A DNA stretch of 64,000 nucleotides from Isoptericola cucumis. GTDB taxonomy: Bacteria > Actinomycetota > Actinomycetes > Actinomycetales > Cellulomonadaceae. Both the position numbers and the translations under genes were made by a program. The stretch is from the NCBI RefSeq assembly GCF_014635665.1, contig NZ_BMDG01000008.1, positions 62,001 through 126,000 of the forward strand. The letters are read 5' to 3'. How positions within the stretch are numbered: position 1 is the first letter of the stretch; each line of letters opens with the position of its first letter. Positions 8,849 through 29,339 of this stretch are shown in pieces. The notes under the pieces were generated by a model. That model worked only from the letters and a program-made list of their open reading frames with translations. It was not told where the DNA came from and made no database searches.

Positions 8849-8910
8849 GCGCGAGCGTCTCTGTCCGTCAGGATTCGACGGCTGATTCCTGACGGACAGA
8901 GACGCTCGCG
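8849..8910. terminator. Long perfect inverted repeat (24-bp arms, 14-nt loop)
   Basis: The arms 8849-8872 and 8887-8910 are exact reverse complements, with a 14-nt loop. The repeat begins 9 bp after the stop of the GH109-like gene and lacks a T-tract, so it would act as a strong actinobacterial-style hairpin terminator. It also marks the left end of the lower-GC island. From 8911 to 9105 I see no convincing gene. Confidence 0.7.
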
Positions 8911-9105: not shown

Positions 9106-9321
9106 GTGGATTCGGTCGTCGAAGCGGAGCTGCGCAAGCAGATCATGGCGTGGGTGGGCGAGCGGGCCGAGGCCAACGGCGGCTTCCTTTACCGCGACGA
9201 GCTGCTGGAATTCCACCTGGGAGGTCAGAAGCTGCCGGTCATCGACTACTCGCGTGGCATCCGCAACCCCGCCACGTTCAACTCGACCCTGTCGATCGTG
9301 AGCGCCGCCGACGGCCCCTAC
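9106..9321 (+). pseudogene. N-terminal remnant of an HNH/McrA-type restriction endonuclease
   Basis: From GTG 9106 the frame gives 72 residues that read like the N-terminal domain of actinobacterial HNH (ScoMcrA-like) endonucleases: AEANGGFLYRDELLEFHLGG, then LPVIDYSRGIRNPATFNSTL and SIVSAADGPY. In intact relatives this GIxxPA/LSI segment belongs to the DNA-recognition domain that precedes the HNH nuclease. Homology stops abruptly after GPY (9321); the frame stays open but becomes a Ser/Arg-rich shadow of the convergent Z1 gene, and no HNH motif follows. This is read as a gene truncated when the neighbouring cassette arrived or was rearranged. The family call is from remembered motif similarity and was not searched. 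Confidence 0.55.
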
Positions 9322-9448
9322 TGCTCCTCGACCTCCACGTCGCGCACATCTGCACCTTCCTGTCGGGCACGATCCCTGATCGGGGGGCACATCGAATGCA
9401 GCACGGTTCCAGCCGCAACGCGCATGTTGAAATGCGTGACCATGACGG

Positions 9449-11650
9449 TCAATCCGCCTGAAGAATCACACGTTCACCAAGTCTCTTCGGGACGTGAATT
9501 GCCAGCGCGGTTGCACGCGAACGCGCCCGATGGCCCGCTTCGATGGCGAGCTCGTGAATCTCCACGGTCACGGCGTCGTCGGCCCAGAAGGCACGGTCGC
9601 CCGGGTAGACACTGCCGTCGGCCGGGTTGGCACCTTGCATCAGGTTGCCGACCACGAGCGACTCGACATCGTCGATGGCGTCCAGGTCCCAGGCAACATC
9701 CTCCAGCACCTCCCGCGAGAGCGCGGAGGGGCCACGATCTCGTGTGGCACCTCCGTCCATGAAGACGAGGTCGACGGGTATCTCGTCATCGATGGTGCCA
9801 AGGGCCAGGACGATCGCGTAGAGCCGATCCTTCTCGTCGGCGGTGATGCGCCAATCGACGATGAACTCCACGAGGTTCGCCCAAGTCGTGCGGACGGTCA
9901 GGTTCCGGCTGGCCGCACGCTGGTCCCGTTTGTCTGGGACTGCAGCCGCGCGGAGCCCGTCGAGGTGCGAGCGACCCGTCGACTTCGGACCGGTCGGATC
10001 CCCGTAGACGTGGGTCTGCGTGAGCGCCCAGCCGGAAAGATCGATGCTGTCAACGTCCAGTCGGACGACCTCCCGCCGCGTGGGGTTCAGGGTGGAATCG
10101 AGCAAGATCGATCTCCGCCAACTCGAAAGTTCCTCACCGTTCACGTCCAGGTCGGCGAGCGCGCAACGCATCGCGTCCTCATGCTTGACGTACATCTTGA
10201 AGACATCGGCCGTGTCAGGGTTCATCCAGGCTCGCAGCAGGTCAAGATACGACCGCTTATAACCGAAGAAGCGACCACGCTGCTGGACAGTGTCAGCGTT
10301 GCGGACACCAGGCCCGCGCGGCATGTAGGTGACCGCAAGGTTCTCCACAGTGAAGCCGCGATCCAACTTGTTTCCACCGATGACAACCCACCCGGGTGCT
10401 TGAGTCCACTCGCTCGACGTGATCTCGTTTCCCTGACGGCTGTTGACCGTGCGAACCATGACGGCCTGAAGGTACCCGCCATCGCCGAGCAGGTCGAGGA
10501 GAGAGTCGAGTGTGACGATCTCTTCGTGGACAACATTCCCGCCGGTCTTCGCCAGGTCCTCATAGGCGTTGCCGAAGATCTCGTCGACGAGCTGCTGCCT
10601 GAGGACGGGATCCCCGTCGGTGAGCGAGGTGTTGAACCGGTCCACGATGCCGTGTGTCCACACCTCGTACGCACGATGCAGATCGGTCCCCGACGAGGGG
10701 TGGATGAGCATTGTCAACGGGAGCGGGTTGTTTCGAAGCTGCGCGACGACCATCGCCAGCAGGAAGGTCGCAACAGCAAGTTTCAGGGACTCGGGCGGGC
10801 TGATCGACTGGTCATCGAGCGCGTCATCGTCGATCTCGCGGACGAACTCTTCGAGCCGCTCTTCGAAGAGAGTCGACCCACCGACGTACCCGGCACCCGC
10901 CTGCAGCACGCTCACCGTACGGGGGGAGAGCGTGTCTTCCAGGGCGATCAGAAGTGGTGCCTGCGGGGTCGCGGTATAGAGCACATAGGAGTGGTTGGAT
11001 GCGGTCTCTCGCAAGAGCCGGATCGAACGATAGGTGGAACTCTCGTCTTCTTGCTTCCGGGCGACGTTAAGACCGGCCTGGTCCGCTTCGTCGTCGATGA
11101 AGAGGACCGGCGCCCCGGGGTTCTGGGCAAGCACGGTCGTCAGGACGTTCCGCGCGCGGCGCAAGGCCGCGTGGTTCTTGAGCACCACAGCAACGGTCGT
11201 CACACGAGTGGCGGGCGACTTGGCGCTTCTCCACTGCTGGATCCGAGCCTGGACATTGTGTGCGTCTGAGGGCTGGAGGTCGTTGACGGGGTGCCAGCTG
11301 GGCAGCCGTCCGTTCCCATTCATCGCAAGATCACGGACAAGACGCTCGTAGGTCTGGTCGCGCAGGTTCGTCTTGGTGCCCGCGAGGACCACGACGAGCG
11401 GGTATCCGTTGTCGTGTGCGGCAGCGATGAGCCCGGTGAACGACAGCGTCTTGCCACTTTGGACCGCGCCGACGACGAGTTCTGCGGACGCCCCATCATC
11501 GTCCCAGCGAGGTGCACGGCATCGCCCGAGGATGCGTAGCGTTTCCCTCTCGAGACGGCTCTGCTCATCGGCAGCGAGGCCCGAACGGACGAGCAGGGCC
11601 CGAAGTTTTCCGCCTGGTGACGGCGTCCAGAGGTCGGCTTGGGTGGTCAT
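9449..11650 (-). CDS. Z1-domain superfamily II helicase-like ATPase
   Basis: A 733-residue protein. Walker A GAVQSGKT is at residues 61-68 and Walker B/DEAD-like FIDDEADQ at about 184-191. A TATPQ motif III lies near 225, and the second helicase lobe carries VIGGNKLDRGFTVENLAVTYMP and QQRGRFFGYKRSY (motif VI-like). The GGxxLxRGxTxEnL and GRFFGY signatures are those of the Z1 domain family. In known neighbourhoods Z1 proteins accompany MORC/MutL-like ATPases in restriction-modification type loci, presumably moving along or remodelling DNA for the nucleases. ATG at 11648-11650 overlaps the stop of the ATPase gene (ATGA), so the two are translationally coupled. It is the last gene of the four-gene minus-strand operon. 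Confidence 0.9.
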   Translation of the reverse strand: MTTQADLWTPSPGGKLRALLVRSGLAADEQSRLERETLRILGRCRAPRWDDDGASAELVVGAVQSGKTLSFTGLIAAAHDNGYPLVVVLAGTKTNLRDQTYERLVRDLAMNGNGRLPSWHPVNDLQPSDAHNVQARIQQWRSAKSPATRVTTVAVVLKNHAALRRARNVLTTVLAQNPGAPVLFIDDEADQAGLNVARKQEDESSTYRSIRLLRETASNHSYVLYTATPQAPLLIALEDTLSPRTVSVLQAGAGYVGGSTLFEERLEEFVREIDDDALDDQSISPPESLKLAVATFLLAMVVAQLRNNPLPLTMLIHPSSGTDLHRAYEVWTHGIVDRFNTSLTDGDPVLRQQLVDEIFGNAYEDLAKTGGNVVHEEIVTLDSLLDLLGDGGYLQAVMVRTVNSRQGNEITSSEWTQAPGWVVIGGNKLDRGFTVENLAVTYMPRGPGVRNADTVQQRGRFFGYKRSYLDLLRAWMNPDTADVFKMYVKHEDAMRCALADLDVNGEELSSWRRSILLDSTLNPTRREVVRLDVDSIDLSGWALTQTHVYGDPTGPKSTGRSHLDGLRAAAVPDKRDQRAASRNLTVRTTWANLVEFIVDWRITADEKDRLYAIVLALGTIDDEIPVDLVFMDGGATRDRGPSALSREVLEDVAWDLDAIDDVESLVVGNLMQGANPADGSVYPGDRAFWADDAVTVEIHELAIEAGHRARSRATALAIHVPKRLGERVILQAD

Positions 11651-13194
11651 GCTGCTGCCTTCTTCGCGAGGGGGCCGGTGAGGATGCGGTTAAGCTCGGC
11701 GATAAGGTACCGAGGTTCCTTCGCACCGCTGCGCTCGGCCTTGATCTGGGCCAGGGCGATCGCTACGGCAAGTCGCAGAACGGGTTCGAGGTCCATGCCC
11801 GGCAGGTACGCGAATGACTGAGTGAAGCTATGAGCCCGGTTGACGGTAACCTTCCAGGCCGCGACGCCATCCTCCTGGAGAACGCGGATCCAATGATTGG
11901 AGTCCGCCGGGTTGTCGATGACGCTGATCGTTAGGCACTCACCGAGAACATCCCATTCCGTGTCATCGAGGATGACGGACTCCTCGACTGGAGGTGAAGC
12001 CGGGACCGCGTTGATCGCTGCGTCCTCGTCTTCCGGATCCTCGACCTCCGGGATTGGCTGGGTAACCGCCTGAACAACCTGCCCGACAATGTCGCGCACG
12101 GTGGTCTGGATGGCGCGGCCACGCTCGGTCGTGCGGTGGTTGCGGGCCATCTTCAGCAGCGGGAGCGGTTCGGCGTCGAGAGCCTGACCGAGTTTTTCGA
12201 GGAACTCATCCTCTTCGTCGCCGTCCCAGACGAGGGAGTCCTTGGTGTGTGCCACCTCCATCGCTGAGACGTCGAGTTCGCCGACGAGTCGCTGAGACTC
12301 GAACGAGTTGCCCCGGCCGAAGACCTTCGCAGGCTTGTACCCGTCGGAGTCGCGTGCCACACCACCGGCACCCTGGACGACCTTGTCACGATAGAGCAGG
12401 GCGAATCCTGCACCGGCGGTGTCACCCTTGGAGAAGAGTCCGGCCCAGCCGGTGATCGTCCGTCCAGAGTCAAGGGTGACAGCGACCTCCTTACGCCACT
12501 CCTCGGGCTGACCGTCAGTGCTGGTCCACCTGGGTGCCACAAGGAAGGTCGGGTGTTCATACGTAAGCTTGCGACCGCCGACGATGATCTCGACGCGTGG
12601 GTCAGCGATGAAACGTCGATAGATCGACGAAAGGTAATCGCGGATCTTGCCGAGCGTGCGGCCGGTCGGTGCGAGGTGGTTGAGGTCGGTGAGGACGAGC
12701 GTGGTGCCATGCTCCTCCGGACGGGCCGGGGTCGTCGTGACGGCGATGTAATCCGACTTGGCCTCGACGATCTTCGGGATGTCGAACGTGACCGCGCGAC
12801 GCACGTCCTCTCCGAGGGCTGTCGTTGTGACCACGAAGTGCTTGGCGTACCAACTGGCAGCGCTTTTCATACCGATGCCGAACTGGGAGAGTCCCGACGA
12901 GTCGGCAGGCGGCGCCGCGGGTGTGAACGCGCGGCTGATGTCCTCGGTGTAGATTCCAGCGGCATTGTCCGTCACCGTGATGCGATCGCCGGCACGATCG
13001 ATCTCGATGTCGATGTTGAGCCGCGCGACGCCGCCACCGACCTCGCCTAGCCGGCCCTCGTGTGTGCGCCACGACTGCAGCGAGTTGTCGACGAACTCCC
13101 CGACGGCATACCACGCCTTGTAGTTCATCGAAGGGAAGAGCGCGAGCATGCCTACCCCGGGACGCACTTCGACGTTGTCGACCTGCTGATTCAT
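11647..13194 (-). CDS. GHKL ATPase of the MORC/MutL-like (paraMORC) type
   Basis: A 515-residue protein. ATG at 13192-13194 has AAGGAG just ahead. The N-terminal GHKL ATPase is clear: PSMNYKAWYAVGEFVDNSLQ holds the N-box (E33, D36, N37), VTDNAAGIY is the G1 box (76-82), and GLSQFGIGMKSAASW is the glycine-rich lid (101-115). A second domain with RDKVVQGAGG and KVFGRGNSFESQRLVGELD resembles the S5-like part of MORC proteins. An acidic, less conserved C-terminus follows. ATP-driven dimer closure around DNA is the known mechanism of the family. The neighbours (Z1, Vsr, methyltransferase) place it in a predicted anti-phage restriction system. Confidence 0.9.
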   Translation of the reverse strand: MNQQVDNVEVRPGVGMLALFPSMNYKAWYAVGEFVDNSLQSWRTHEGRLGEVGGGVARLNIDIEIDRAGDRITVTDNAAGIYTEDISRAFTPAAPPADSSGLSQFGIGMKSAASWYAKHFVVTTTALGEDVRRAVTFDIPKIVEAKSDYIAVTTTPARPEEHGTTLVLTDLNHLAPTGRTLGKIRDYLSSIYRRFIADPRVEIIVGGRKLTYEHPTFLVAPRWTSTDGQPEEWRKEVAVTLDSGRTITGWAGLFSKGDTAGAGFALLYRDKVVQGAGGVARDSDGYKPAKVFGRGNSFESQRLVGELDVSAMEVAHTKDSLVWDGDEEDEFLEKLGQALDAEPLPLLKMARNHRTTERGRAIQTTVRDIVGQVVQAVTQPIPEVEDPEDEDAAINAVPASPPVEESVILDDTEWDVLGECLTISVIDNPADSNHWIRVLQEDGVAAWKVTVNRAHSFTQSFAYLPGMDLEPVLRLAVAIALAQIKAERSGAKEPRYLIAELNRILTGPLAKKAAA

Positions 13195-13355
13195 CCGACT
13201 CCTTCCTTCCACGCGAAGGCTAGTTGGACCCTCCGACACCAGCGGCCCAGAACCCGGTGGCGGGCGGGTGAAATGTAACTCGAATGTGTGTGCGACCGTG
13301 GCAGGGGTGAGCGGCGGAGTGGAGGGAGATACGCGAAACACCCTTCGGATGCGGC

Positions 13356-13799
13356 TCAGCGGACCGCGGCCTCGACGCGGCCTGCTGCCTCATCAACGGG
13401 CTCATGCTCCCAAACCCTTACAACCACCCAGTCCATCGCCGCGAGGAGGCGGTCGGTGTCACGGTCACGCGCCTGGTTTGCGCCAAGTTTCGTGGCCCAC
13501 CATTCGTTGTTCGCACGGGGCGTGGTGCCATGGTCAGGACAGCCGTGCCAGAAGCAGCCATCGACGAAGACCGCGACTCTCTGGCGCGTAAACGCAATGT
13601 CGATCGTACGTCGCCGCTGACCGGGGACCGGGAAGGCGACACGGTAGCGCAGCCCACGTGCATGGAGCTGGCGTCTGAGTCCGATCTCAGCCTCGGTATC
13701 CCGACGTTTCGCCGCACTCATCCGCTTCGACATCATCGGCGATGACGATCCGGGGTGTGCAGGCACGCGCTGCGGCACGGGTGGGTCGACGACGCTCAC
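13356..13799 (-). CDS. Vsr-type (very short patch repair family) endonuclease
   Basis: A 147-residue protein with the whole Vsr pattern: RRDTEAEIGLRRQLHARGLRYR (32-53), the catalytic Asp in TIDIAF (D67), the FVDGCFWHGCPDH block (78-90) with the zinc and active-site Cys/His residues, then EWWATKLGANQARDRDT and a Trp-rich RVWEHE end. Classical Vsr nicks T:G mismatches left by cytosine-5 methyltransferase deamination, and one such methyltransferase is encoded 1.7 kb away. In loci with Z1 and MORC proteins, Vsr-fold enzymes are instead predicted to be restriction nucleases. GTG at 13797-13799 overlaps the stop of a 33-codon upstream ORF (GTGA); an internal ATG pair at residues 22-23 is the alternative start. 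Confidence 0.9.
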   Translation of the reverse strand: MSVVDPPVPQRVPAHPGSSSPMMSKRMSAAKRRDTEAEIGLRRQLHARGLRYRVAFPVPGQRRRTIDIAFTRQRVAVFVDGCFWHGCPDHGTTPRANNEWWATKLGANQARDRDTDRLLAAMDWVVVRVWEHEPVDEAAGRVEAAVR

Positions 13800-13897
13800 C
13801 GGTCCATCATGCCCTCAAAGGCGACGAGCAGCGTCGTCGCAGCGAAGCCGCTCTGCCGTTCGACGACCACGAGATCCGGGCGCTCGACGGACATCAT
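13796..13897 (-). CDS. Possible 33-residue ORF coupled to the Vsr gene
   Basis: In the 163-bp gap between the nuclease gene and vsr, an ATG at 13895-13897 opens 33 codons beginning MMSVERPDLVVVERQSG and ending at a TGA that overlaps the vsr GTG by the usual four-base GTGA. No clear Shine-Dalgarno is present and I recognise no family. It may be a short leader peptide coupling vsr translation, or chance. Confidence 0.25.
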   Translation of the reverse strand: MMSVERPDLVVVERQSGFAATTLLVAFEGMMDR

Positions 13898-13962
13898 CTG
13901 CTGTACCCGGTGACAGCGCCTGCTATCTCACGCGCAGCGGCGCCGCCGACACGTCCTCAACT

Positions 13963-15408
13963 TCAGAGGTCGGCACCTCGGCGCGCGCCAAGCCACGTGT
14001 GCGACGCGACCTGCCACGGCCTGGCCCTCGCAGGTCGACCCGAAAACTTGTCGTTCCGAGCCCGCCGCGCGGTGCCGGCCCCCCAGTCAGGCTGCCCCTT
14101 CTGCGCTAGCCACCCTGCCGCGATTCCGGCGTCGAGATCCGCGGTGTCCTCGATCCAGATCGCACGGAGCTCGATCGGGCTCCAAACAGCCTTGCGGGCA
14201 CGGGACCTGCCCGTGCTCGCCACGTACCTCCTCAGCGCGCGCCCGTCGGATTCGCTGAAGGCCTTGTGCCAAGCCCGGAAGTCACCACTGGAGTCAAGGC
14301 CTGCCAGCCCGTCGACGATGATGAACCCGAGCCCTTGCTCCTCTACACAAGCGCGGACCGCCTTGGCGTCGTTGAGCCACATCTCTGAGCTGGATCGCTT
14401 GGACGGCGCGGTTCCGTCCCACGGGTGCTCACGGGTCAATGCTGTGTGAGCCTTCGCGTCCCAGACGCGGGTCGGGGAGGCATAGTCGAAGATGGTGCTG
14501 CCGTATCGAACGCGCGGACCACCGACGATCGGAGTCGGGTACCGGCTGTTGAGCACGTCTCGCAGACGCTCCTCGAAGTAGAACCCGAACCACTCCATCT
14601 GCCGCCACTGGGTCGATCCGGCCTCGCGCATCCATCGGATGCAGTCGACGCCGTCCCAGTGGTCCGGGAGCTCGTCAGCCAACGCCCCGACCAGTGCCGT
14701 GCCCTCTTCAGCGGCCGTCGCCCAACCTGCCGACGAGACATGGGCCGCACGCTCCGCACCGGCGAGCAGGAGGTTTAGCCCGTCGCGCGTGATCGACGCG
14801 CCTGTGGATCCCGCGCCGTCCAGCCACGGGACGCCGAACTCCTCGCAGAGAGCAGCGGCAAGCTCGTGCTTCGTCCGCTTCCGATCGAGCAGGTGCGGGG
14901 CGAGGCGGCGCGAAACGTCGCGGAGCGTCCAGGTGTGCTCCTTGCCCCCAGGACCGAGCGCGTCGTGCGGAACACCGGCGATGTCGCACAAGCGGTTCAC
15001 GGCCGACTGCTTATCGGGCGCCGGGCTGAACGCGGGGAATGCCAGCAAGACCTCGGCGACCGAAGTGCTCGAGACGGACTGCTCCCGCGAGAGTCGGATG
15101 ATGCTCGCAGACGCGGCACGGAGCAGGTTATTCATCCCGATCAACGTCACCTGCAGGCCTTCGTAGTCGACGCCATCGACCCAACCAGTTCCGAGCGAGT
15201 CCGCGATCTGCGCCCCGAGAACGGCGTTCACTGCAGCCAGGTCTACGTCGAGCCCGAGACTCTGCGCGAGCGCCACGAGCGAGCGCTTCGGCCCCCGCGT
15301 ACCGGCGTCGGGCGCCGCAGCGAGCGCAAACATCCTGGCGCTGGCCTCGGGAATCGTCCGCGCCGGGTTGAAGTTCTCGGTAGTGACGTTGGACACCCAG
15401 CCACCCAA
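13963..15408 (-). CDS. Predicted restriction endonuclease, PD-(D/E)XK-like
   Basis: A 481-residue protein, first gene of the minus-strand defence operon. The start is taken as TTG 15406-15408 because GGAGG stands 7 nt ahead. The N-terminal ~250 residues are helical and unassigned. A candidate nuclease core is at about 275-325: FGFYFEERLRDVL (acidic residues on a helix), then VRYGSTIFDY with D308, and RVWDAKAH with D317 and K319. This fits an E...D...(D/E)xK arrangement. A second LNDAKAVRACVEEQGLGFIIVDG segment could be the following strand and helix. No closer family is recognised. It is encoded divergently from the cytosine methyltransferase and is the likely DNA-cutting partner, perhaps acting together with Vsr. 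Confidence 0.65.
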   Translation of the reverse strand: MGGWVSNVTTENFNPARTIPEASARMFALAAAPDAGTRGPKRSLVALAQSLGLDVDLAAVNAVLGAQIADSLGTGWVDGVDYEGLQVTLIGMNNLLRAASASIIRLSREQSVSSTSVAEVLLAFPAFSPAPDKQSAVNRLCDIAGVPHDALGPGGKEHTWTLRDVSRRLAPHLLDRKRTKHELAAALCEEFGVPWLDGAGSTGASITRDGLNLLLAGAERAAHVSSAGWATAAEEGTALVGALADELPDHWDGVDCIRWMREAGSTQWRQMEWFGFYFEERLRDVLNSRYPTPIVGGPRVRYGSTIFDYASPTRVWDAKAHTALTREHPWDGTAPSKRSSSEMWLNDAKAVRACVEEQGLGFIIVDGLAGLDSSGDFRAWHKAFSESDGRALRRYVASTGRSRARKAVWSPIELRAIWIEDTADLDAGIAAGWLAQKGQPDWGAGTARRARNDKFSGRPARARPWQVASHTWLGARRGADL

Positions 15409-15475
15409 GCAGACACCTCCGACAGCGGAGCCCGTGGGACGATCAGAGGTCGAAGCGACACCTCGTCGCCGGTAC

Positions 15476-15504
15476 TTGCGCTCCCGCTCCGGATGCGGTT
15501 AGCT
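15476..15504 (+). promoter_or_regulatory. Candidate promoter of the cytosine methyltransferase
   Basis: TTGCGC (15476-15481), a 17-bp spacer and TTAGCT (15499-15504) form a vegetative-type promoter with an expected start about 30 nt before the GTG at 15541. TGTACA (15504-15509) and GTTCGAAC (15513-15520) palindromes follow at once and could bind a regulator shared with the divergent nuclease operon, whose start lies only 132 bp from the methyltransferase start. Confidence 0.4.
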
Positions 15505-15540
15505 GTACACACGTTCGAACCTCGGCCTTCTGGAGCCCCC

Positions 15541-17109
15541 GTGAGCACACCTGACGCACCGGCCTTCAAGTACGTCGACCTCTTCGCCGGGATCGGCGGC
15601 TTCCACGCGGTGCTCGACGCCATGGGTGGCGAATGCGTCTACGCGGTCGAGATCGACCCCGCCGCGCAGGCGGTCTACGAGGCGAACTGGGGCTCTCGAC
15701 CACTGGGCAGGAACGCCAATGGCGACATCACGCTCGACACTGCGAGCCCGGACACGGCGGTGCCGGAACACGACGTGCTCGTGGCGGGCTTCCCGTGCCA
15801 GCCGTTCAGCAAGTCCGGCAAGCAGCAGGGCATGGACGAGACCCGCGGCACGCTGTTCTTCAACATCATGGAGATCGTGCGGCACCGTCGACCAGCGGTT
15901 GTCCTCCTGGAGAACGTCCGCAACCTCGCTGGACCACGACACACCCACGAGTGGCACGTGATCATTCAGCGGCTGCGCGACGCCGGCTATCGGGTCAGCC
16001 ACAAGGCCGACATTCTCTCCCCCGCGTCGTTCGCCCCCGAGTTCGGAGGGCACCCGCAGACACGCGACCGGGTCTTCATCGCCGCAACGCGTGTGGAACC
16101 GTTGGAAATAAGCGAGGAGTACCGGCGCCTCGCGAAGGAAGGCAGGCTCGACCTCCCCGATCCGCTCGCCCCGTACGACGAGCCCTTGCCCGTCGGGAAC
16201 CTACGAATGACGGACGAGTGGGACCTCGTGAAGCACCTCCCGCTGGACATCACCATCACTGACGACGGCTCGGTCTCGGAAGCGGAGTGGACGTGGATCG
16301 AGCACTGGGACGCGTGGGTCCAGCAGACTCGCCAGATGCTCGCATCCGAGGCGGACCGTGCCGGCGCCAAGGCCAAGGACCTGCCGGGGTTCCCCATCTG
16401 GGCCCACGTATGGACGACCGATCAGAACGAGCGTGATACCGCACTGGCGGACGCGGCGGGCATGGCGTGGAAGGTCAGTCACCTTCGGAAGAACTACGAG
16501 TTGTTCGACCGTCTTCGCGCGTATGACTCCAAGTGGCTCGGTACATGGCTGGGAAGGACCCGACAGTTCCCCGAATCGAGGCAGAAGTTCGAGTGGCAGG
16601 CGCAGGACGCCCCCTCGATCCTCCAGTGCGTCATCTCGTTTCGGCCGTCTGGGCTGAGGGTCAAGCGACTTACCCACCTGCCAGCATTGGTCGCCATCTC
16701 GCAGACTCCGATCATCGGACCACTTCGTCGCCGGCTCTCCATCAAGGAGGGCGCGCTGCTCCAAGGCCTCCCCGAGGGGTTCAAGTGGCCACAGAAGGAC
16801 GCTGCAACCTGGAAGCAGCTCGGGAACGGCGTCAACACCGGCGTCGTCGCTCGCGCACTGTGGGCACAGGTGACGCGTGACCTCGACCTCCTACAGTTCG
16901 ACCGGCGAGGGCAGTCGATCCATGACGCAGTCACCAAGACGCTCGCGCAGGACGGCAACCTGGAGTTGTCGATTCAGGCCGCTTGGGAACGCTCGCAGGC
17001 AAGCCTCGCTAAGCGGCCCGAAACGGAGGATGCCTCCGCGGTAGCGGAGGATCGCGCCGGCTCTTCGCTCTTCGCAGTTCCGGCGATGCCGGCTACTGCG
17101 ACTCTCTGA
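15541..17109 (+). CDS. DNA (cytosine-5) methyltransferase
   Basis: A 522-residue type II C5 methyltransferase. Motif I is YVDLFAGIGGFHAVLDAMGG (11-30). Motif IV is GFPCQPFSKSG with catalytic Cys86, motif VI is LLENVRNL (123-130), and motif VIII is PQTRDRVFIAATR. A long variable target-recognition region follows, and the C-terminal motifs IX-X read RLSIKEGALLQGLPEGF and QLGNGVNTGVVAR. It adds a methyl group to C5 of cytosine in an unknown target and should protect the host from the nucleases encoded opposite. GTG 15541 is preferred over an ATG 16 codons upstream because GGAG lies 5 nt ahead. The last ~60 residues are an extra tail. Codon use is visibly less GC-biased than in flanking genes. 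Confidence 0.93.
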   Translation: MSTPDAPAFKYVDLFAGIGGFHAVLDAMGGECVYAVEIDPAAQAVYEANWGSRPLGRNANGDITLDTASPDTAVPEHDVLVAGFPCQPFSKSGKQQGMDETRGTLFFNIMEIVRHRRPAVVLLENVRNLAGPRHTHEWHVIIQRLRDAGYRVSHKADILSPASFAPEFGGHPQTRDRVFIAATRVEPLEISEEYRRLAKEGRLDLPDPLAPYDEPLPVGNLRMTDEWDLVKHLPLDITITDDGSVSEAEWTWIEHWDAWVQQTRQMLASEADRAGAKAKDLPGFPIWAHVWTTDQNERDTALADAAGMAWKVSHLRKNYELFDRLRAYDSKWLGTWLGRTRQFPESRQKFEWQAQDAPSILQCVISFRPSGLRVKRLTHLPALVAISQTPIIGPLRRRLSIKEGALLQGLPEGFKWPQKDAATWKQLGNGVNTGVVARALWAQVTRDLDLLQFDRRGQSIHDAVTKTLAQDGNLELSIQAAWERSQASLAKRPETEDASAVAEDRAGSSLFAVPAMPATATL

Positions 17110-17412
17110 CCGAACGACAAAGGGCATTGTTCACGTGGTAGGGCGGTAGAACTCTCGAGGTTGGTGATCATGCGGACCACGCTTGGTAGTTCTGTCAGGG
17201 TCCGCGGTAGCAGGCGACGAGGTCAGGAACGTGACTTCATTACGGTCCCTCACCGGTTTAATTTGACTCTTAGGATCTCCACCGGCGAGGAACGCGCCGC
17301 GGTCGCCCACCCGCCCGTCGGAAGCGACTGCAGCCTGTACGCCCTCGCCCCTTCATCCGGACGAAGAGCTTCTGACCTGCTTCGGTCGACTCGGACCCGC
17401 TGATCAGGAAAT
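17110..17412. other. Gap between methyltransferase and HNH genes
   Basis: About 300 bp without a supported gene. It contains an AT-richer patch (17254-17280) with TTTAAT at 17257-17262 and TTGACT at 17263-17268 that may belong to the promoter of the HNH gene, but no -35/-10 pair at normal spacing is convincing. Confidence 0.3.
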
Positions 17413-18231
17413 ATGGCCGATATGGCAAGAGCACCGAGAGGTACCGGCATCCGCGAGCCCGAGCGGACCCTGATGTCTGCCATCTCCGACGCGTTGGACA
17501 TCGACCACTTTACGTGCGCCAAGGGCGCGAGCGTGGAACGATCGTTTCTCGAAGCGGTCGCCGGTGGACTTGGGTTCGATGGAGGCAGACGCCGCTTCCG
17601 CAACAAAGGCTTACTGCTGTCCGCAATAATCCAGAAGTCCACGGGCCGCCCGCCAGCGAAGGTCGCACTCAAAGGTGGGACTGTTACCGACGAGGCGCTG
17701 GAGAACGTCCTGAAAGGCATCCAGGCCAATGGCCTGGCGAAAGTCTCGCTCACGAGGGGCGCTGCAGCCGGCCGCATCGCCACGACCCTGTACGAGCAGG
17801 ACGGCGCCCCGGGCGTGTTCGACCCGCTCGATCTGTCGGACGTACGCAAGTGGTCGTTGCGCGAGGTCGTGGTGCGCGGCGGCCAGGCATCGTTCCGCGA
17901 CCGCGCCCTGAGGGCCTACGGCGGCACGTGTTCGATCACCGGTTGTTCCGTTCCCGAGGTGCTCGACGCTGCACACATCCGCCCCTACAAGGGAACGCGA
18001 TCGAACGTCGCTTCGAACGGAATCCTTCTGAGGGTGGATCTGCACCGACTTTGGGACCGGGGCCTGATGGCAGTACATGAATCAACCCTTGAGGTCCTGT
18101 TCGCGCCGAAGCTCGTGCACACGGAGTATGGGGCGACGTGGGGCGGAACGAAGATGCGGCTCCCGATTGAGGCGTCGAAGCAGCCGTCCACGCTCGCTCT
18201 CGAGCAGCAGCGCACATGGGCTGGGCTGTAG
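17413..18231 (+). CDS. HNH endonuclease (HNH_2 type)
   Basis: A 272-residue protein. The N-terminal half (to about residue 140) is unassigned. The C-terminal nuclease has FRDRALRAYGGTCSITGCSVPEVL, DAAHIRPY (185-192), SNGILLRVDLHRLWDRGLM (201-219), the order typical of HNH_2 restriction-type proteins, where the His of AAHI, the Asn of NG and the His of DLH form the metal site. Relatives often cut modified or foreign DNA. The gene follows the methyltransferase on the same strand but 300 bp away, so it may have its own promoter. ATG 17413 has AGGA ahead; a second ATG lies three codons in. It could be part of the restriction cassette or an independent defence gene at the island's right edge. Confidence 0.85.
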   Translation: MADMARAPRGTGIREPERTLMSAISDALDIDHFTCAKGASVERSFLEAVAGGLGFDGGRRRFRNKGLLLSAIIQKSTGRPPAKVALKGGTVTDEALENVLKGIQANGLAKVSLTRGAAAGRIATTLYEQDGAPGVFDPLDLSDVRKWSLREVVVRGGQASFRDRALRAYGGTCSITGCSVPEVLDAAHIRPYKGTRSNVASNGILLRVDLHRLWDRGLMAVHESTLEVLFAPKLVHTEYGATWGGTKMRLPIEASKQPSTLALEQQRTWAGL

Positions 18232-18426
18232 CCCAGCGCGCGAACATCGTGGGGCGTCACGGCACTCGATTGTCTCGATCATCTACATGAGTTGACATTC
18301 GTGGCGGTGCGCAAGAAAGAGCGCGGCGCACGACCAGACCTGGGACGTAGGTCCATGCGACAGGGAGCGGCTGCCTGTGTGGTGGCCAACCGGACACGCG
18401 ACTTTGGGAGACAAGCGGCGACTACT

Positions 18427-19560
18427 TCAATTGTCGTTGAGGTGCCGGACGATCCGGTTCACGGCGTCCCGCCCGGCACGGTTCGCGCCGATCGTGGAGG
18501 CGGACGGCCCGTAGCCGATCAGGTGCACGCGAGGCTCGCCGTCCACCTGGGTGCCGTCCATGCGGATGCCGCCACCTGCCCCGCGCAGACCCAGCGGCCG
18601 CAGGTGGTCCAGGGCGGCGCGGAAACCGGTGTTCCAGAAGATGACGTCCACGGGCACCAGCCCGCCGTCGGGCATGACGACACCCTCGGACGCGATGCGC
18701 GCGAACATGGGCCGGCGGTCGAGCACACCACGCGCCGCGGCGGCACGGAGCGACGGCGTGCGGATCAGGCCGGTCACGGACACGACGCTCAGCGGCGGCA
18801 GCCCGTCGCGCACGCGGTCGGCGACCATCGCGACGGCCCGCGACCCGTCCTCGGGGTCGAAGGAGTCCCGCCACACGGGCTCGCGCCGCGTGAACCAGAA
18901 GGTCTGCGCCACGTGCGACACCTCCTCCAGCAGCTGCACGGCGGAGATCCCGCCGCCGACGACGGCGACGCGCTGCCCGGCGAAGTCCTCCGCGCGGACG
19001 TAGTCGGCGGTGTGCAGCTGGCGGCCGCGGAACGTCTCCTGCCCCGGGTACGCGGGCCAGAACGGCTTGGACCACGTGCCCGTCGCGTTGATGACCGCCC
19101 GCGCGGTGATCACGCCCGAGCTCCCCCGGCCCTCCCAGCGGACCAGCAGGTCTCCGTGGCCGCCGTCGCCCCCGTCGCCGAGCTCGTCGTCCGCCTTCTC
19201 GACCCGGCGCACCCGCACCGGCCGCACGACGGCGAGCCCCAGCTCGTCCTCGTAGTCGCCGAAGTAGGCGGGCAGCACGTCGACGCTCGCGGCCTCGGGC
19301 TCGACGTCGGGCTGCTCGATGCCGGGCAGGTCGTGGATCCCGTTGATCGTGCTCATCCGCAGCGAGCGCCACCGGTGCCGCCACGCGCCTCCCGGCCCGT
19401 CCTCCGCGTCGAGGACCAGGTACGTGCGCGCCCCGCCCGCCGGATCACCCGCCGGCACGAACCCGCGCCGCCGCAGGTGGTAGCCGGCGGACAGCCCCGC
19501 CTGCCCCGCGCCGATCACCACGACGTCCGCGGCCTGCGGCACTGCCTCGGTCGACGTCAT
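18427..19560 (-). CDS. Flavin-containing monooxygenase-like NAD(P)/FAD oxidoreductase
   Basis: A 377-residue protein with FAD motif VVVIGAGQAGLSAGYHLRRRG (13-33), the GGAWRHRWRSLRMST segment after the first domain that resembles the WDSLRLFT region of CzcO/FMO relatives, a second Rossmann motif RVAVVGGGISAVQLLEEV for NAD(P)H, and FWNTGFRAALDHLRPL near the end, equivalent to the ATG-type motif. The family oxygenates soft nucleophiles or carbonyls using flavin hydroperoxide. The substrate is unknown. It is the first flanking gene right of the defence island and returns to very high GC. The 195 bp between it and the HNH gene hold no gene I can support. Confidence 0.85.
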   Translation of the reverse strand: MTSTEAVPQAADVVVIGAGQAGLSAGYHLRRRGFVPAGDPAGGARTYLVLDAEDGPGGAWRHRWRSLRMSTINGIHDLPGIEQPDVEPEAASVDVLPAYFGDYEDELGLAVVRPVRVRRVEKADDELGDGGDGGHGDLLVRWEGRGSSGVITARAVINATGTWSKPFWPAYPGQETFRGRQLHTADYVRAEDFAGQRVAVVGGGISAVQLLEEVSHVAQTFWFTRREPVWRDSFDPEDGSRAVAMVADRVRDGLPPLSVVSVTGLIRTPSLRAAAARGVLDRRPMFARIASEGVVMPDGGLVPVDVIFWNTGFRAALDHLRPLGLRGAGGGIRMDGTQVDGEPRVHLIGYGPSASTIGANRAGRDAVNRIVRHLNDN

Positions 19561-19639: not shown

Positions 19640-20392
19640 TCACCGGACGGCCTCGCCGGCCGCGCGCGCCGCGCGGAACACCCGGGCCTCGCGGGCCTGC
19701 CGGACCTCGGGCCCGGGCTGCTGCGCGTCGTCCGACGCGAAGAGCTCGGCCACGAACCGCTCGAACCACTCCTCCGACCGCGGCCGCAGCGGCACCCGGG
19801 CGCTCGCGTGGTTCGCCAGGATGCCCGCCCGCAGCGACGCGCAGTACGCGCCGTGGTCGTGACCGACCAGCCGGTCCCAGTCCTCGTGCGTCACGTACGC
19901 CAGGTCCTCGTGGAACGTCAGCACCTCGCCCCGGGTGCCGAACACGGGCGCGACGGCGGCGACGTCGAGCGCGACGGGGGGCGCACCCCGGCGGACGACG
20001 TCCGCGAACAGCGGCGCGAGCCGGCGCGACCGCACGGGGGCGGCGTCCTCGTCGTCGGGCCCGCCTGCCTCGTCGCCGGCACCGTGACGCCGGGTGGGGA
20101 GGGTCCGGGCGATGAGCGTCAGGGCGTCGACGACCCGCCGGCACCGCGGGCACGGCTCGGCGACGCCGGTCGTGACCCAGGCGCGCAACGGCTTCACCGC
20201 ACGCCGGCAGGCGACGCACAGCACGGCCGGGACGACCGTGCAGCCCTCGGCCCGCCGCAGGCCGGACTGGTGCACCGGGTGCCTCCGGCAGACCACCGTG
20301 AAGGCGTCCTGCGCGACCAGCGCCTCGCAGGGGTCCTCCGGCCGCACCAGCTGGATGGTCGCGTCGCCCACGACATCGGTCGATGTGGACAT
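19640..20392 (-). CDS. Orphan Cys-rich hypothetical protein
   Basis: A 250-residue protein I do not recognise. ATG at 20390-20392. The first half carries cysteine clusters VVCRRHPVHQ, VLCVACRRAV and EPCPRCRRVV that look like a zinc-ribbon or treble-clef site. An acidic, charged linker follows around residues 105-118, then an alpha/beta-looking second half (LTFHEDLAYVTHEDWDRLVGHDH) with no known motif. There is no signal peptide or membrane segment. It stands alone between a monooxygenase on the same strand and the secreted CBM2 gene divergent from it. A nucleic-acid- or metal-binding role is possible but not supported beyond the cysteines. Confidence 0.55.
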   Translation of the reverse strand: MSTSTDVVGDATIQLVRPEDPCEALVAQDAFTVVCRRHPVHQSGLRRAEGCTVVPAVLCVACRRAVKPLRAWVTTGVAEPCPRCRRVVDALTLIARTLPTRRHGAGDEAGGPDDEDAAPVRSRRLAPLFADVVRRGAPPVALDVAAVAPVFGTRGEVLTFHEDLAYVTHEDWDRLVGHDHGAYCASLRAGILANHASARVPLRPRSEEWFERFVAELFASDDAQQPGPEVRQAREARVFRAARAAGEAVR

Positions 20393-20755
20393 CTCTCGTC
20401 CTCCGGGCTCGGGAGGCGACGGCGGTCCCCGCGCTCGCGGTGCGCTCCGGGGCCGACGACAACCTCGCGCTTCCCCAGGCCGGTCGGCCAGGGCGGGTCT
20501 TCCTCCTGGGGCACCGTGCGCGAGGGGCGCGGTTGCCGGACCGGCACGCGGAGGGCGTCTCGCCGGTCACTCTTGACCTGGGGAAACATCTACACGACGC
20601 GCGGCAGGCACGCAAGGGATTTCACCTGCTGCTCACGCGGCGTTCGGCCCCGGGCCTCGATCGTGTCGGTCGCACGAGGTGGACTGGTCGCCGACAGCCG
20701 GGCCGCTGATCTGCAGTGACGCAGGACCCGGGCACTGCGCCCCAGGAGAGATCCC
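20393..20755. other. Intergenic region, divergent promoters
   Basis: About 360 bp between two divergent genes. A TTGACC hexamer is followed by TACACG at an unusually short spacing around 20572-20596; nothing else stands out. The right-hand end carries the AGGAGA ribosome-binding site of the CBM2 gene. Confidence 0.3.
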
Positions 20756-22273
20756 ATGCACCGACCTCGAACCACGCGGCTCGTCACCGCGGTCGCCGCG
20801 GCGCTCGCGGTGCCGCTCGCCCTGGCGACGCCGGCGGCAGCGAGCCCCGGGCCCGCGCCGGGCGACGACGCTGCACCGCCCGCGGTGGCGAGCCTCCCGC
20901 TGGAGCAGAACGGCGGCACCTGGCCCACCAGCCACGTGCAGGGAGTCGCCGTCGACCAGGCGGGCGGCTTCGTCTACTACTCGTTCACGACGCTGCTGGC
21001 GAAGTACGACCTCGAGGGCAACCTCGTCGGCACGGTCGAAGGCTTCACGGGCCACCTGGGCGACCTGGACTTCAACGCCGAGGACGGGCGCGTCTACGGC
21101 TCGCTCGAGTACAAGGACGACGAGGCCTTCTACGTCGCGGTCGTCGACGTCGACGACGTGGACGAGGTGGGCATGGACGCCCAGGAGTCCGACGTCTTCT
21201 CCACCGTGTACCTGCCCGAGGTTCACGACGACTACGCCGCCGACATGGACGGCGACGGGAAGTTCGACGGCAACGTCGGGGACACGGCCGACCACCGGTA
21301 CGGCAGCTCCGGCATCGACGGCGTGAGCTTCGGCCCGGCGTTCGGCAGGACGGGCGGCGAGCAGCGCCTCACGGTCGCGTACGGCATCTACGCCAACACG
21401 TCCCGCACGGACAACGACCACCAGGTGCTGCTGCAGTACGACGTCTCCGACTGGGCGCGCTACGAGCGTCCGCTCACCGAGGAGGACCCGCACCGCAGCG
21501 GCCCGGCCGAGGTGGACGGCAAGTACTTCGTCCGCACCGGCAACACCACGTACGGCGTGCAGAACCTCGCCTACGACGACGCGCAGCAGCGCTGGTTCCT
21601 GGGCGTGTACCGGGGCACCAAGCCGCAGTTCCCGAACTACCTGATGTTCGCGGTCGACGCCGCCACCCGACCCGTCGAGGGCGACCTGCTCGGCGTGCCC
21701 GGCCCGGGCGGCGAGGGCACCGAGCGCGGCCTGCTGCTCGCCCTGGCCGACGACGGCCTCGTCGACGAGGAGACCGGCATCCGCGGCTGGGAGCAGAAGG
21801 CCGACGTCGGCCTGCAGCCCCTGGGACACGGGTTCTTCTACCTCGCGACGAACTCCGGGAGCAGCGGCGCACAGACCGCCGACCTGCGGCTCGTGCGCTG
21901 GACCGGCGACGCCGAGGCGCCGTTCGCGCCCGCCACGGAGGCTGAGCTCGCGGGCACGTGCGCCGTCGACTACACCGTGCACGGCACCTGGCCGCGCGGG
22001 TTCACCTCCCAGGTGTGGGTCGAGAACACCGCCGCCACACCCGTCGACGGCTGGACCGCCGCCTGGCGGTTCGGCGCGGGCGAGTCGCTCAAGAACGTGT
22101 GGAGCGTCGAGGCCGAGCAGCACGGCGACGTCGTGCGCGCCGCCAACCTGGGCTGGAACGCCGCGCTCGCCCCCGGCGAGCGCACGACGTTCGGGTTCGT
22201 CGGGGACGCACCCTCCGGCACCGCCGCGCCGTCGCTGGTCACCCTGAACGGCTTCCCCTGCGCGACGGCCTGA
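20756..22273 (+). CDS. Secreted protein with C-terminal cellulose-binding CBM2 module
   Basis: A 505-residue exported protein: signal peptide MHRPRTTRLVTAVAAALAVP and on to an AAAS cleavage site near residue 31. Residues ~45-395 form a beta-rich domain of repeated strands (VQGVAVDQAGGFVYYSF, LGDLDFNAEDGRVYGSLEY, VQNLAYDDAQQRWFLGVY), like a propeller of unknown function. An EF-hand-like DMDGDGKFDG loop may bind calcium. The C-terminus, from about residue 400 (CAVDYTVHGTW), is a CBM2: FTSQVWVENTAATPVDGWTA, conserved surface Trp residues, NLGWNAALAPGERTTFGF and a closing Cys. It should bind cellulose or chitin outside the cell. No known glycoside-hydrolase motif is visible. Start: AGGAGA 6 nt before ATG. 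Confidence 0.82.
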   Translation: MHRPRTTRLVTAVAAALAVPLALATPAAASPGPAPGDDAAPPAVASLPLEQNGGTWPTSHVQGVAVDQAGGFVYYSFTTLLAKYDLEGNLVGTVEGFTGHLGDLDFNAEDGRVYGSLEYKDDEAFYVAVVDVDDVDEVGMDAQESDVFSTVYLPEVHDDYAADMDGDGKFDGNVGDTADHRYGSSGIDGVSFGPAFGRTGGEQRLTVAYGIYANTSRTDNDHQVLLQYDVSDWARYERPLTEEDPHRSGPAEVDGKYFVRTGNTTYGVQNLAYDDAQQRWFLGVYRGTKPQFPNYLMFAVDAATRPVEGDLLGVPGPGGEGTERGLLLALADDGLVDEETGIRGWEQKADVGLQPLGHGFFYLATNSGSSGAQTADLRLVRWTGDAEAPFAPATEAELAGTCAVDYTVHGTWPRGFTSQVWVENTAATPVDGWTAAWRFGAGESLKNVWSVEAEQHGDVVRAANLGWNAALAPGERTTFGFVGDAPSGTAAPSLVTLNGFPCATA

Positions 22274-22384
22274 ACACCCTGGCCCGCACCCGGCCGCGTT
22301 CCTGGACTTCGACCTTCCGCGTCGTGAAGGTGGACGTGACCGCCGTGCCGGGGGGCCGGTGCGGGCAGCGACAAGGGGGTTGCG

Positions 22385-24103
22385 ATGGCCGAGAAGCGTC
22401 TGGACGCGCTGGCGCGTCGACTGGGACTACGGACCGACCCGACGATCTTCTTCGTCTCCGCGGTGCTCATGGTGCTGTTCCTCGCCATGCTGCTGGTCTT
22501 CCCCGAGCAGATCGGCGGAGTGTTCGGCGACAGCCGGGAATGGATCGTCACCAACCTGGGCTGGTTCTTCATCCTGGGCGTGACGGTCTGGGTGCTGTTC
22601 CTGGCGTACGTGGCGCTGAGCCGGTTCGGGCACCTGCGCCTGGGCGACGACGACTCCCGCCCCGCGTACGGGAACCTGTCCTGGTTCGCGATGCTGTTCG
22701 CGGGCGGCATCGGCACGGTGCTGATGTTCTGGGGAGTGGCCGAGCCGATGTCGCACTTCGCCACACCGCCGCTCGACGGGGTGGACCCGTACTCGGCGGA
22801 GGCGGCGTCGGACGCCATGTCGATCTCGCTCTACCACCTGAGCCTGCACACGTGGGCGATCTTCACCCTTCCTGGACTGGCGTTCGGGTTCTTCGTGTAC
22901 CGGTACAAGCTGCCGCTGCGGGTCAGCTCGGTCTTCTACCCGTTCCTCAAGGAGCGGATCTACGGCCCGGTCGGCAAGACGATCGACGTGTTCGCGGTGC
23001 TGGGCACGCTGTTCGGGCTCGCGGTCTCCCTCGGCCTCGGGACGTCGCAGATCGGCGCCGGCGTCAACGCGCTGCTGCCGTCGGTCGACAACAGCATGTG
23101 GCTCCAGGTCGGCATCATCACCGTGCTCACCGCAGTCGCGGTGTCCTCCATCGTCGCCGGCCTCGACAAGGGCGTGAAGCGGCTGTCGAACCTCAACATC
23201 CTCATGGCCGTCGGCCTCATGGTGTTCGTGCTCGTCTCCGGGGACACGCTGTTCCTCCTGCGCCAGATCCCGCAGTCCATCGGCGTCTACCTGCAGGACC
23301 TCGTCGGCCTGGCGCTGTGGAACGACGCCATGTCGCCGTTCACCAAGGAGGGCGGCTGGGGCTGGCAGGGTGGATGGACCGTCTTCTACTGGGCGTGGAC
23401 CGTCACCTGGGCCCCGTTCATGGGAGTCTTCCTGGCCCGCATCTCGCAGGGCCGGACCATCCGCCAGTTCGTCGGCGGCGTGCTGCTCGCGCCCTCGCTC
23501 TTCACCGCCGTGTGGTTCGTCGTCTTCGGCTGGTCGGCGATGGAGCTCGACGGCATCGACGGCTCCGGTGGGGCCCTCTCGGAGGCCGTGTCCGACGACG
23601 TCGCGCTGGCGATGTTCACGTTCTTCGACAACTTCCCGGCCGCGACGCTGGTCTCCGGGATCGCCGTCGTCGTCGTGGCGCTGTTCTTCGCCACGTCGTC
23701 CGACTCCGCGTCGCTGGTGGTCGACATGCTCTGCACCGGCACCCCCGACGCCGGACCGGTGCGCCAGCGAGTCTTCTGGGGGGTCAGCGAGGGTGCGCTG
23801 GCAGCGTCGCTCATCATCCTCGGGGGGCTCACGGGGCAGGACGGGCTCGCCGCGCTGCAACAGGTGATCACCGTGATCGGGCTACCGATCTTCCTGCTCG
23901 TCTTCATCATGATGTTCAGCCTGGTCAAGGGCATGCACGCCGAACGCGGAGCCGCGCTCGAGGCCCAGTTCGCGGGCATCCTCGACAAGCGGGACGCCGG
24001 GCGAGGGCGGCCGAAGGTCGCCGGCCAGGGGCGCAGCCGCGGCTCCTCACCCGTGCCGGCTGCGGCAGGGGCGTCGGACGACCAGGACTCCTCCGAGCCC
24101 TGA
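22385..24103 (+). CDS. BCCT-family betaine/choline/carnitine transporter
   Basis: A 572-residue membrane protein with about twelve hydrophobic segments. The family glycine segment is GIGTVLMFWGVAEPMSHF at about residue 105, and the signature tryptophan helix is GWTVFYWAWTVTWAPFMGVFLARISQGRTIRQF near 340-370. The cytosolic tail of some 45 residues is Gly/Arg/Ser-rich. BCCT carriers take up quaternary-ammonium osmolytes with Na+ or H+, or exchange them. The GxGxxLMFxG region is of the cation-coupled rather than exchanger style, but the substrate cannot be fixed. Start ATG 22385 has AAGGGGG ahead. It is a single gene with no obvious partner. Confidence 0.9.
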   Translation: MAEKRLDALARRLGLRTDPTIFFVSAVLMVLFLAMLLVFPEQIGGVFGDSREWIVTNLGWFFILGVTVWVLFLAYVALSRFGHLRLGDDDSRPAYGNLSWFAMLFAGGIGTVLMFWGVAEPMSHFATPPLDGVDPYSAEAASDAMSISLYHLSLHTWAIFTLPGLAFGFFVYRYKLPLRVSSVFYPFLKERIYGPVGKTIDVFAVLGTLFGLAVSLGLGTSQIGAGVNALLPSVDNSMWLQVGIITVLTAVAVSSIVAGLDKGVKRLSNLNILMAVGLMVFVLVSGDTLFLLRQIPQSIGVYLQDLVGLALWNDAMSPFTKEGGWGWQGGWTVFYWAWTVTWAPFMGVFLARISQGRTIRQFVGGVLLAPSLFTAVWFVVFGWSAMELDGIDGSGGALSEAVSDDVALAMFTFFDNFPAATLVSGIAVVVVALFFATSSDSASLVVDMLCTGTPDAGPVRQRVFWGVSEGALAASLIILGGLTGQDGLAALQQVITVIGLPIFLLVFIMMFSLVKGMHAERGAALEAQFAGILDKRDAGRGRPKVAGQGRSRGSSPVPAAAGASDDQDSSEP

Positions 24104-24175
24104 CCGTCGCTCGGCCGACGCCCCGACCTGCGCGCGACGATCCGCCCAGATCCGCTGCCGTCGTACGGTGGGCTC

Positions 24176-24541
24176 GTGGCAGAGGCCAGGATCCCGGCGG
24201 CGCTGTCGGGAGCGACCACGTGCCGGATCGTCACGCGCGGGCGCGTCAGCGGTGCGGAGCACGCCGTGACGGTCTGGTTCGCCCCCGTCGGCGACCGGCT
24301 GTACGTCGCGGTGCGTGGTGGGCTGCGCAGCGACTGGCTGCAGAACGCGCTGGCCCAGGAGCGGGTGCGCGTGGGCCGGCGCCACAGCGCATGGCCGGCC
24401 GGAGTCGCGCTCGTCACCGACCCGGCCGAGTGCCGGCGCGCCGTCGAGGCGTTCGCCGAGAAGTACGCCCAGCACTCCTCCGTGATCCGCGCCTGGCGCG
24501 CCGACGCTCCCACCTTCGCGCGGCTCGACCTCGCGGGCTGA
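24176..24541 (+). CDS. Small split-barrel (DUF385/PNPOx-like) protein
   Basis: A 121-residue protein with the order of strands seen in small FMN/F420-binding split-barrel proteins: CRIVTRGRVSGAEHAVTVWF, DRLYVAVRGG, SDWLQNALAQERVRVGRRH. The RGRxSG/H and SDWLxN segments are typical of deazaflavin-dependent nitroreductase-like (DUF385) proteins. GTG 24176 is 6 nt after TACGGT (24164-24169), suggesting a leaderless mRNA. No partner gene is apparent. The cofactor and substrate are unknown. Confidence 0.6.
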   Translation: MAEARIPAALSGATTCRIVTRGRVSGAEHAVTVWFAPVGDRLYVAVRGGLRSDWLQNALAQERVRVGRRHSAWPAGVALVTDPAECRRAVEAFAEKYAQHSSVIRAWRADAPTFARLDLAG

Positions 24542-24562
24542 TCGCCGTCGGCGAACCCGGAA

Positions 24563-24583
24563 ATTGAGCCGGGGTGGCTCAAG
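24563..24583. promoter_or_regulatory. HspR-type inverted repeat (HAIR) ahead of hsp20
   Basis: ATTGAG, nine bases, CTCAAG. The HspR-associated inverted repeat of actinobacteria is CTTGAG-N9-CTCAAG, so 11 of the 12 arm bases match at the exact spacing. It lies 39 bp before the hsp20 ATG and predicts heat-shock repression by HspR. Confidence 0.75.
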
Positions 24584-24621
24584 TTGTACCCGTCAGCAGC
24601 ACCCACCCCGAGGAGGACAGC

Positions 24622-25050
24622 ATGACCACCACCCTGACCCGCACCCCGTTCGCCGACGCCTGGCTCCGCGACCTGTGGACGCCCCGCTTCGCCGACGTCG
24701 CCCGCACCGAGGGCGTCAGCCCCGCCGCGGACGTGTACCGCGACGGCGAGGACCTCGTCGCCCGCCTCGACCTGCCGGGCGTGAACCCGGCCGAGGACGT
24801 CACCGTCGAGGTCGAGGGCCGCAAGCTCGTCGTGCGCGGCGAGCGCAAGGACCAGCGTTCGGAGGAGTCCGAGGGCCGCCGCATCTCGGAGGTCCGCTTC
24901 GGCTCCTTCCGTCGCGTCGTCGCCCTGCCGAAGGCCGTGGAGCCCGACGCCGTCACCGCGTCCTACGACGCGGGGATCCTGACGGTCACGGTCGCCGGCG
25001 TCTTCGCCGGCACCACGCCGCAGCGCATCGAGGTCACCACCGCGGCCTGA
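24622..25050 (+). CDS. Hsp20/alpha-crystallin small heat-shock protein
   Basis: A 142-residue chaperone. The alpha-crystallin domain runs from about residue 32 (VSPAADVYRDGEDLVARLDLPGV) through VTVEVEGRKLVVRGERK and FGSFRRVVALP to the conserved A-x-x-x-x-GxLxV equivalent VTASYDAGILTVTV. A short C-terminal tail ends TTPQRIEVTTAA, where RIEV is the I/V-x-I/V-like tail motif. It holds unfolding proteins in the cytosol under stress. ATG 24622 with AGGAGG 6 nt ahead was chosen over a longer frame that would cross the HAIR operator. It is expected to be HspR-controlled and is followed by a strong bidirectional terminator. Confidence 0.93.
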   Translation: MTTTLTRTPFADAWLRDLWTPRFADVARTEGVSPAADVYRDGEDLVARLDLPGVNPAEDVTVEVEGRKLVVRGERKDQRSEESEGRRISEVRFGSFRRVVALPKAVEPDAVTASYDAGILTVTVAGVFAGTTPQRIEVTTAA

Positions 25051-25081
25051 CAGCACCGCAGCCTGGCCCTCCAGGCACGCA

Positions 25082-25121
25082 CGACGGCGCCCGGTCATCC
25101 TGTGATGGCCGGGCGCCGTCG
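25082..25121. terminator. Hairpin terminator between hsp20 and hepT
   Basis: The 13-bp arms 25082-25094 and 25109-25121 are exact complements, and the inner bases extend the stem further to a short CTGT loop with one G.U pair. Positioned between the converging ends of hsp20 and the toxin gene, it probably serves both. Confidence 0.75.
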
Positions 25122-25128
25122 CGCGCAC

Positions 25129-25458
25129 CTAGGGAGCGCGTTCCACCAGCTGTTCGAGGGCCGCTCGCAGAGCGCCGAGGTCGTTCTCGACAGTCGCGCG
25201 CACGATCTGAGCGTCGATCGTCGTGTACCCGTGGACGATGCGGTTGCGCGTCGCCCGGACCACTGGCCACGCGTCACCGAACGCTCGGTCGCGACCATCG
25301 GCGCTGAGCCGCGCCGCAGCATCGATCGCCGCAGCGAGCCTGAGGCAGACCGCGTCCACGGTGACCTGTGCCGACCATGAACCTTCCGCGACATGCCGCT
25401 CCAGCATCGCCAGGTGTTCCAGCGACTCCAGAGCAAGCTGATGGTCGGAGCGCCTCAC
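25129..25458 (-). CDS. hepT: HepT-like HEPN toxin
   Basis: A 109-residue all-helical HEPN-domain protein. The RX4HXY active motif is present as RNRIVHGY at about residues 70-77. HEPN toxins are ribonucleases cleaving tRNA or mRNA; in studied HepT-MntA pairs the Tyr of this motif is AMPylated by the antitoxin. GTG at 25456-25458 overlaps the antitoxin stop (GTGA), giving the antitoxin-first, coupled order usual for the system. The length fits the family. Confidence 0.87.
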   Translation of the reverse strand: MRRSDHQLALESLEHLAMLERHVAEGSWSAQVTVDAVCLRLAAAIDAAARLSADGRDRAFGDAWPVVRATRNRIVHGYTTIDAQIVRATVENDLGALRAALEQLVERAP

Positions 25459-26003
25459 AAGGTGATCGCACCGATCGACTCCCGCACCGCCGAGCGCAGC
25501 GATCGTTCGGGCACGATGTCGACCGGCCGGCCGAGCATCTGCTCGAGCTCGACCTCCAGCGCGCCCAGCGCGAAGTGCCCGACCCCGTCGTCGAGATCGA
25601 CCAGCAGATCGACGTCGGATCCCGCGTCAGCGGTACCGGCAGCCACCGACCCGAAGACGCGCACGTGCCGCACGCCATGGCGACTCGCCGCCGCCACGAT
25701 GTCATCCCGACGGCGGCGCAAGACGTCATCCAGGACCGACTGGCAGGCCGGCCGTACGCCCACGTTCGCCACATCAGGATCGCTCTCGAGCGCCCGGTGC
25801 AGGAGTCGCTTGACCTCGGGCTGACTCCGTCCGAGCGCCCCTGCGATACGCCGCTGGCTCCAGCCCAGGTCGTGCGCCTGTCGGGCCCCTCGTTCCAAAG
25901 TTGTCCGAGCCTCGTCCCGCAACGCCTCCGCGCGCTCCGCAAGGGAACCGAGGTAGTCCTCGAACGCGCGCTCGACAGCCGACACGTCGCCGTCATCCAC
26001 CAC
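25455..26003 (-). CDS. mntA: MntA-type nucleotidyltransferase antitoxin with N-terminal HTH
   Basis: A 182-residue protein. The C-terminal minimal nucleotidyltransferase has the exact GSX10DXD motif (FGSVAAGTADAGSDVDLLVDL, residues ~117-137), which binds Mg-ATP and transfers AMP to the toxin. The first ~80 residues are extra: a coiled helix followed by a helix-turn-helix, GWSQRRIAGALGRSQPEVKRLLH. This addition could let the antitoxin repress its own promoter, as many MNT antitoxins lack any DNA-binding domain. GTG start 26001-26003 with GGAGG just upstream. It forms a type VII toxin-antitoxin pair with the downstream gene. Confidence 0.85.
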   Translation of the reverse strand: MVDDGDVSAVERAFEDYLGSLAERAEALRDEARTTLERGARQAHDLGWSQRRIAGALGRSQPEVKRLLHRALESDPDVANVGVRPACQSVLDDVLRRRRDDIVAAASRHGVRHVRVFGSVAAGTADAGSDVDLLVDLDDGVGHFALGALEVELEQMLGRPVDIVPERSLRSAVRESIGAITL

Positions 26004-26096
26004 ACCACCTCCGATAGGTGATGCTATCAGCGGGCGTCACGTCTCCGCACCCGCTCTCGTCGTGGTGACAGAGAGACTGGGAACGAGGGAGGCACC

Positions 26097-27308: not shown

Positions 27309-27309
27309 C

Positions 27310-28389: not shown

Positions 28390-28482
28390 CCCCGCCTACT
28401 TTCGTCCGCTCCGGCCCCGCCCGCCCGCCGCAGGATGGGCAGCGGCCGGAGATCCCGGCCCTCACGCAGAAGGGTGCCGGAC

Positions 28483-29268: not shown

Positions 29269-29339
29269 ACCGGACCTGAACCGGCCGCCGCCCGCGAGCC
29301 GTGCCGGCCGGCGTCACCGCGTCTGGTTACGGTGCCGCC

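Follow-up and report, generated by a model that had tools for sequence, protein, structure and literature searches.

What kind of system do a GHKL ATPase, a Z1-type ATPase, two nucleases and a cytosine-5 DNA methyltransferase form when they are encoded side by side, and which of the nucleases belongs to its core? The question is raised by a locus in a 64,000-nucleotide stretch of the Isoptericola cucumis genome (contig NZ_BMDG01000008.1, positions 62,001 to 126,000; hereafter the window). With about even confidence, the locus is best read as an ATPase engine combined with swappable nuclease cassettes under a shared methyl mark. Such a system would probably methylate its own DNA and leave unmarked foreign DNA to be destroyed by ATP-driven proteins and nucleases, the engine working with interchangeable cassettes and one mark being common to all. 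Systems of this general kind were predicted years ago; the version in the window differs from most of its relatives in its nuclease, and no experimental test of this version was found in the literature.

The ATPase pair

The gene make-up given in a preliminary description of this DNA is confirmed, and the neighbourhood recurs in relatives. The locus was placed in a set of 31 GHKL-bearing loci, window included, from which L058 was dropped because a contig end cuts its GHKL gene (the methyltransferase is present), as were L024, L025 and L027, duplicates of L036, L038 and L041. The Z1-type ATPase (9449..11650, minus strand) has a superfamily II helicase motif, scores 109.2 bits against a profile cut-off of 25 and stands beside GHKL in 31/31 loci, which rules out chance co-occurrence. 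The DThhQXuRhFG form of the motif, typical of a helicase partner of GHKL, is found in 24 of the 31.

The GHKL protein (11647..13194, minus strand) has the four ATP-binding motifs and the S5 domain of MORC and paraMORC ATPases. The motifs reported earlier are present (EFVDN, DNAAG, GLSQFGIGMKS), and T164 is invariant across 26 rows. A structure model built with 26 sequences (predicted local distance difference test, pLDDT, 79.8) matches MORC4 and MORC3 at ranks 1-3, followed by a mixture of TRAP1 and MORC2; among the 50 matches listed, E goes down to 3.5e-16 at 11-16% identity. Sequence comparison with the PDB gives weak top matches (MutL, E 0.024). The earlier paraMORC/MORC label is therefore kept in part: the GHKL and S5 domains and the structure matches support it, but the strict S5 motif of MORC proper, GhXhhpXXRhl, is absent from the window protein, which reads GFALLYRDKVV with K for R, and the ExxxH of paraMORC2 occurs nowhere in it. 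Since both are missing, the protein is called MORC-like, with no subfamily assigned. Across the loci, the S5 motif is found in strict form in 14/31 and in relaxed form in 28/31 (anywhere in the matched stretch), and ExxxH in 2/31 (residues 251-330 of the matched stretch).

Proposed interchangeable nucleases and methyl mark

A DUF4420 nuclease is encoded in 20 of the 31 loci. It is absent from the window and from the whole genome to which the window belongs, in a search that was positive in two control genomes. Another type II-like nuclease, from one of four families that include HaeIII, is present in 11/11 DUF4420-free loci vs 5/20 loci with DUF4420.

In the window, the second nuclease (13963..15396, minus strand; alternative start TTG at 15408) is a restriction-endonuclease-like protein that matches no family in the profile libraries searched. 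Two related N-terminal domains precede a PD-(D/E)XK-like domain with E279, D308, D317 and K319, all invariant across nine aligned rows. A profile of domain 2 picks up domain 1 at 34-117 bits in seven relatives and at 39 bits in the window protein, against a background of at most 15.4 bits among the 737 shuffles listed of 800. In a model of moderate confidence, the elements that carry the four residues run helix, three strands, helix, strand, the typical PD-(D/E)XK order; no PDB fold match is obtained at E <= 0.001. The MTaX1 nuclease of L027/L041 was rejected as a relative: it joined via the first iterative profile and was lost once the profile was rebuilt from alignment A2. The second nuclease tracks the methyltransferase and not the ATPases, a result read from the contrast between modules and not from single p values, as the Mantel tests used ignore host phylogeny, and its family is also found at loci without GHKL. 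At L065:7015-19106 and L066:629-12067, DruE and DruF adjoin a member of this family and a cytosine-5 methyltransferase, with Vsr also present in L065.

The cytosine-5 DNA methyltransferase of the window (15493..17109, plus strand) has the Druantia methylase DruM2 as its top PADLOC profile. A methyltransferase of the same family adjoins MzaC-like and MzaD-like proteins at L171:8811-16049, a stretch that lacks this GHKL subfamily.

The role of Vsr

The window's Vsr-family endonuclease (13356..13799, minus strand) scores 108.8 bits with TIGR00632 (cut-off 97.85). The catalytic residues D67, H85 and D112, together with W84 and W101, with roles as in the aligned E. coli enzyme, are conserved in 28/28 proteins, in loci with and without GHKL; F83 is found in 24/28, with Tyr in the remainder, and M27 in 18/28. 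The preliminary interpretation had the ATPases license Vsr and the second nuclease to cut. A restriction-type locus with ATPases is supported; Vsr as a cutter is not, and it is probably a repair helper instead.

The arrangement in the window's own clade weighs against a helper role, since there Vsr sits in the operon of the ATPase engine. In the window, L031, L032, L033 and L045, which form a DUF4420-free clade with 100/100 support, the gene immediately upstream of GHKL is Vsr, in the same orientation (5/5, 14-90 bases from the open frame), vs 0/13 DUF4420 loci with Vsr. Vsr could thus stand in DUF4420's place as the nuclease of the system, a reading to which the MutL-Vsr parallel drawn by Iyer et al. 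(2008) lends some colour (PMC2292703). Vsr also tracks GHKL better than the methyltransferase (0.76 vs 0.53), although zero lies within the bootstrap interval of that difference (-0.10 to 0.53). We nevertheless consider this substitution unlikely. The adjacency is confined to one clade and so counts as one event; Vsr is missing from 6/11 DUF4420-free loci; and it is not significantly rarer without GHKL, being present in 18/31 GHKL loci vs 10/25 GHKL-free methyltransferase loci (p 0.28), a set that omits L149 (a 3.3-kb contig) and L066 (found by nuclease search) and in which several stretches end at contig ends. As a general replacement for DUF4420, Vsr is rejected, because those six loci do without it while all 11 have another nuclease. 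Separately, a further gene separates Vsr from GHKL at L036:9005-9937 and L040:8980-9849; its product in L036, compared through the duplicate L024, is similar to part of PglW.

An inserted island

Homology with same-genus genomes delimits an inserted island at 9321..18434 (no strand assigned). In G003 (stretch L110), homology ends at window position 9320 and restarts at 18435, the intervening span being ~1.7 kb vs 9.1 kb in the window. The left edge falls within a resident HNH-type endonuclease gene, of which a stump of ~72 codons is found at 9106..9320 (plus strand); among the six same-genus stretches compared, the gene is present only in G003, as an intact copy (309 aa, L110:11983-12912). On the right, homology resumes at 18433-18451 in 6/6 stretches, an edge that is less certain because a conserved gene ends there too. 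GC content in 1-kb bins is 0.62-0.69 at 9 to 19 kb vs 0.69-0.80 elsewhere. GHKL relatives occur in 2/97 other near relatives, one of them a weak partial match, a scarcity that fits horizontal acquisition.

A virus or plasmid origin of the system was rejected. Viral contigs gave no match to a single-protein query and weak partial matches alone to alignment queries (one for the second nuclease, six for GHKL); phage records gave one weak match, and plasmids two records for GHKL and none for the second nuclease.

The island also encodes an HNH_2 endonuclease (17413..18231, plus strand), a relative of which lies within ~10 kb of the system in 5/30 other loci. Immediately to the left of the island, at 8850-8910, is a hairpin-like inverted repeat of 27 bases (96% complementary, 7-base loop). 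Counterparts of window 29.34-29.65 kb and 18.4-19.6 kb are close together in three same-genus genomes, which makes another insertion or a rearrangement possible at 19640-29337. No RNA family reaches its gathering score, and a promoter and terminator scan shows no excess over chance.

Comparison with known systems

In a comparison with MzaABCDE (profiles and PMC9523054), the window's MzaC NCBIfam score is 128.1 bits vs a cut-off of 1500, and the Mza partners DUF4420 and AIPR are not among the seven window proteins scanned. In the ATP-dependent type II systems CglI and NgoAVII, the R-protein is a PLD-B3 nuclease (PMC4267653), whereas the window has a GHKL ATPase and none of those seven proteins matches PLD or B3 families. 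Druantia type II (PADLOC profiles) shares a DruM2-type methyltransferase with the window, but neither DruE nor DruF is among the island proteins scanned. Paralleling the window, paraMORC-related GHKL proteins of the HEF_HK type that occur close to type II systems have cytosine-5 methylase, Vsr and HNH_2 neighbours, but these proteins contain an HEF_HK domain and are partnered by Response_reg_2, and the window scan matched neither (PMC8011034).

Iyer, Abhiman and Aravind (2008) predicted restriction-modification operons with MORC or paraMORC proteins, which share with the window a GHKL and S5 ATPase, a superfamily II helicase with DThhQXuRhFG, a restriction-endonuclease (RE)-fold nuclease, a cytosine-5 methylase and Vsr (PMC2292703). 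The window differs in the K for R of the MORC S5 motif and in lacking the paraMORC2 ExxxH, and the extra RE-fold protein of those operons may be DUF4420, not the window's second nuclease. VcSduA, a GHKL-Shedu protein (paraMORC3), likewise joins a GHKL ATPase to a PD-(D/E)xK nuclease; there the ATPase is believed to govern the nuclease, and anti-phage action requires both sites (PMC12137116).
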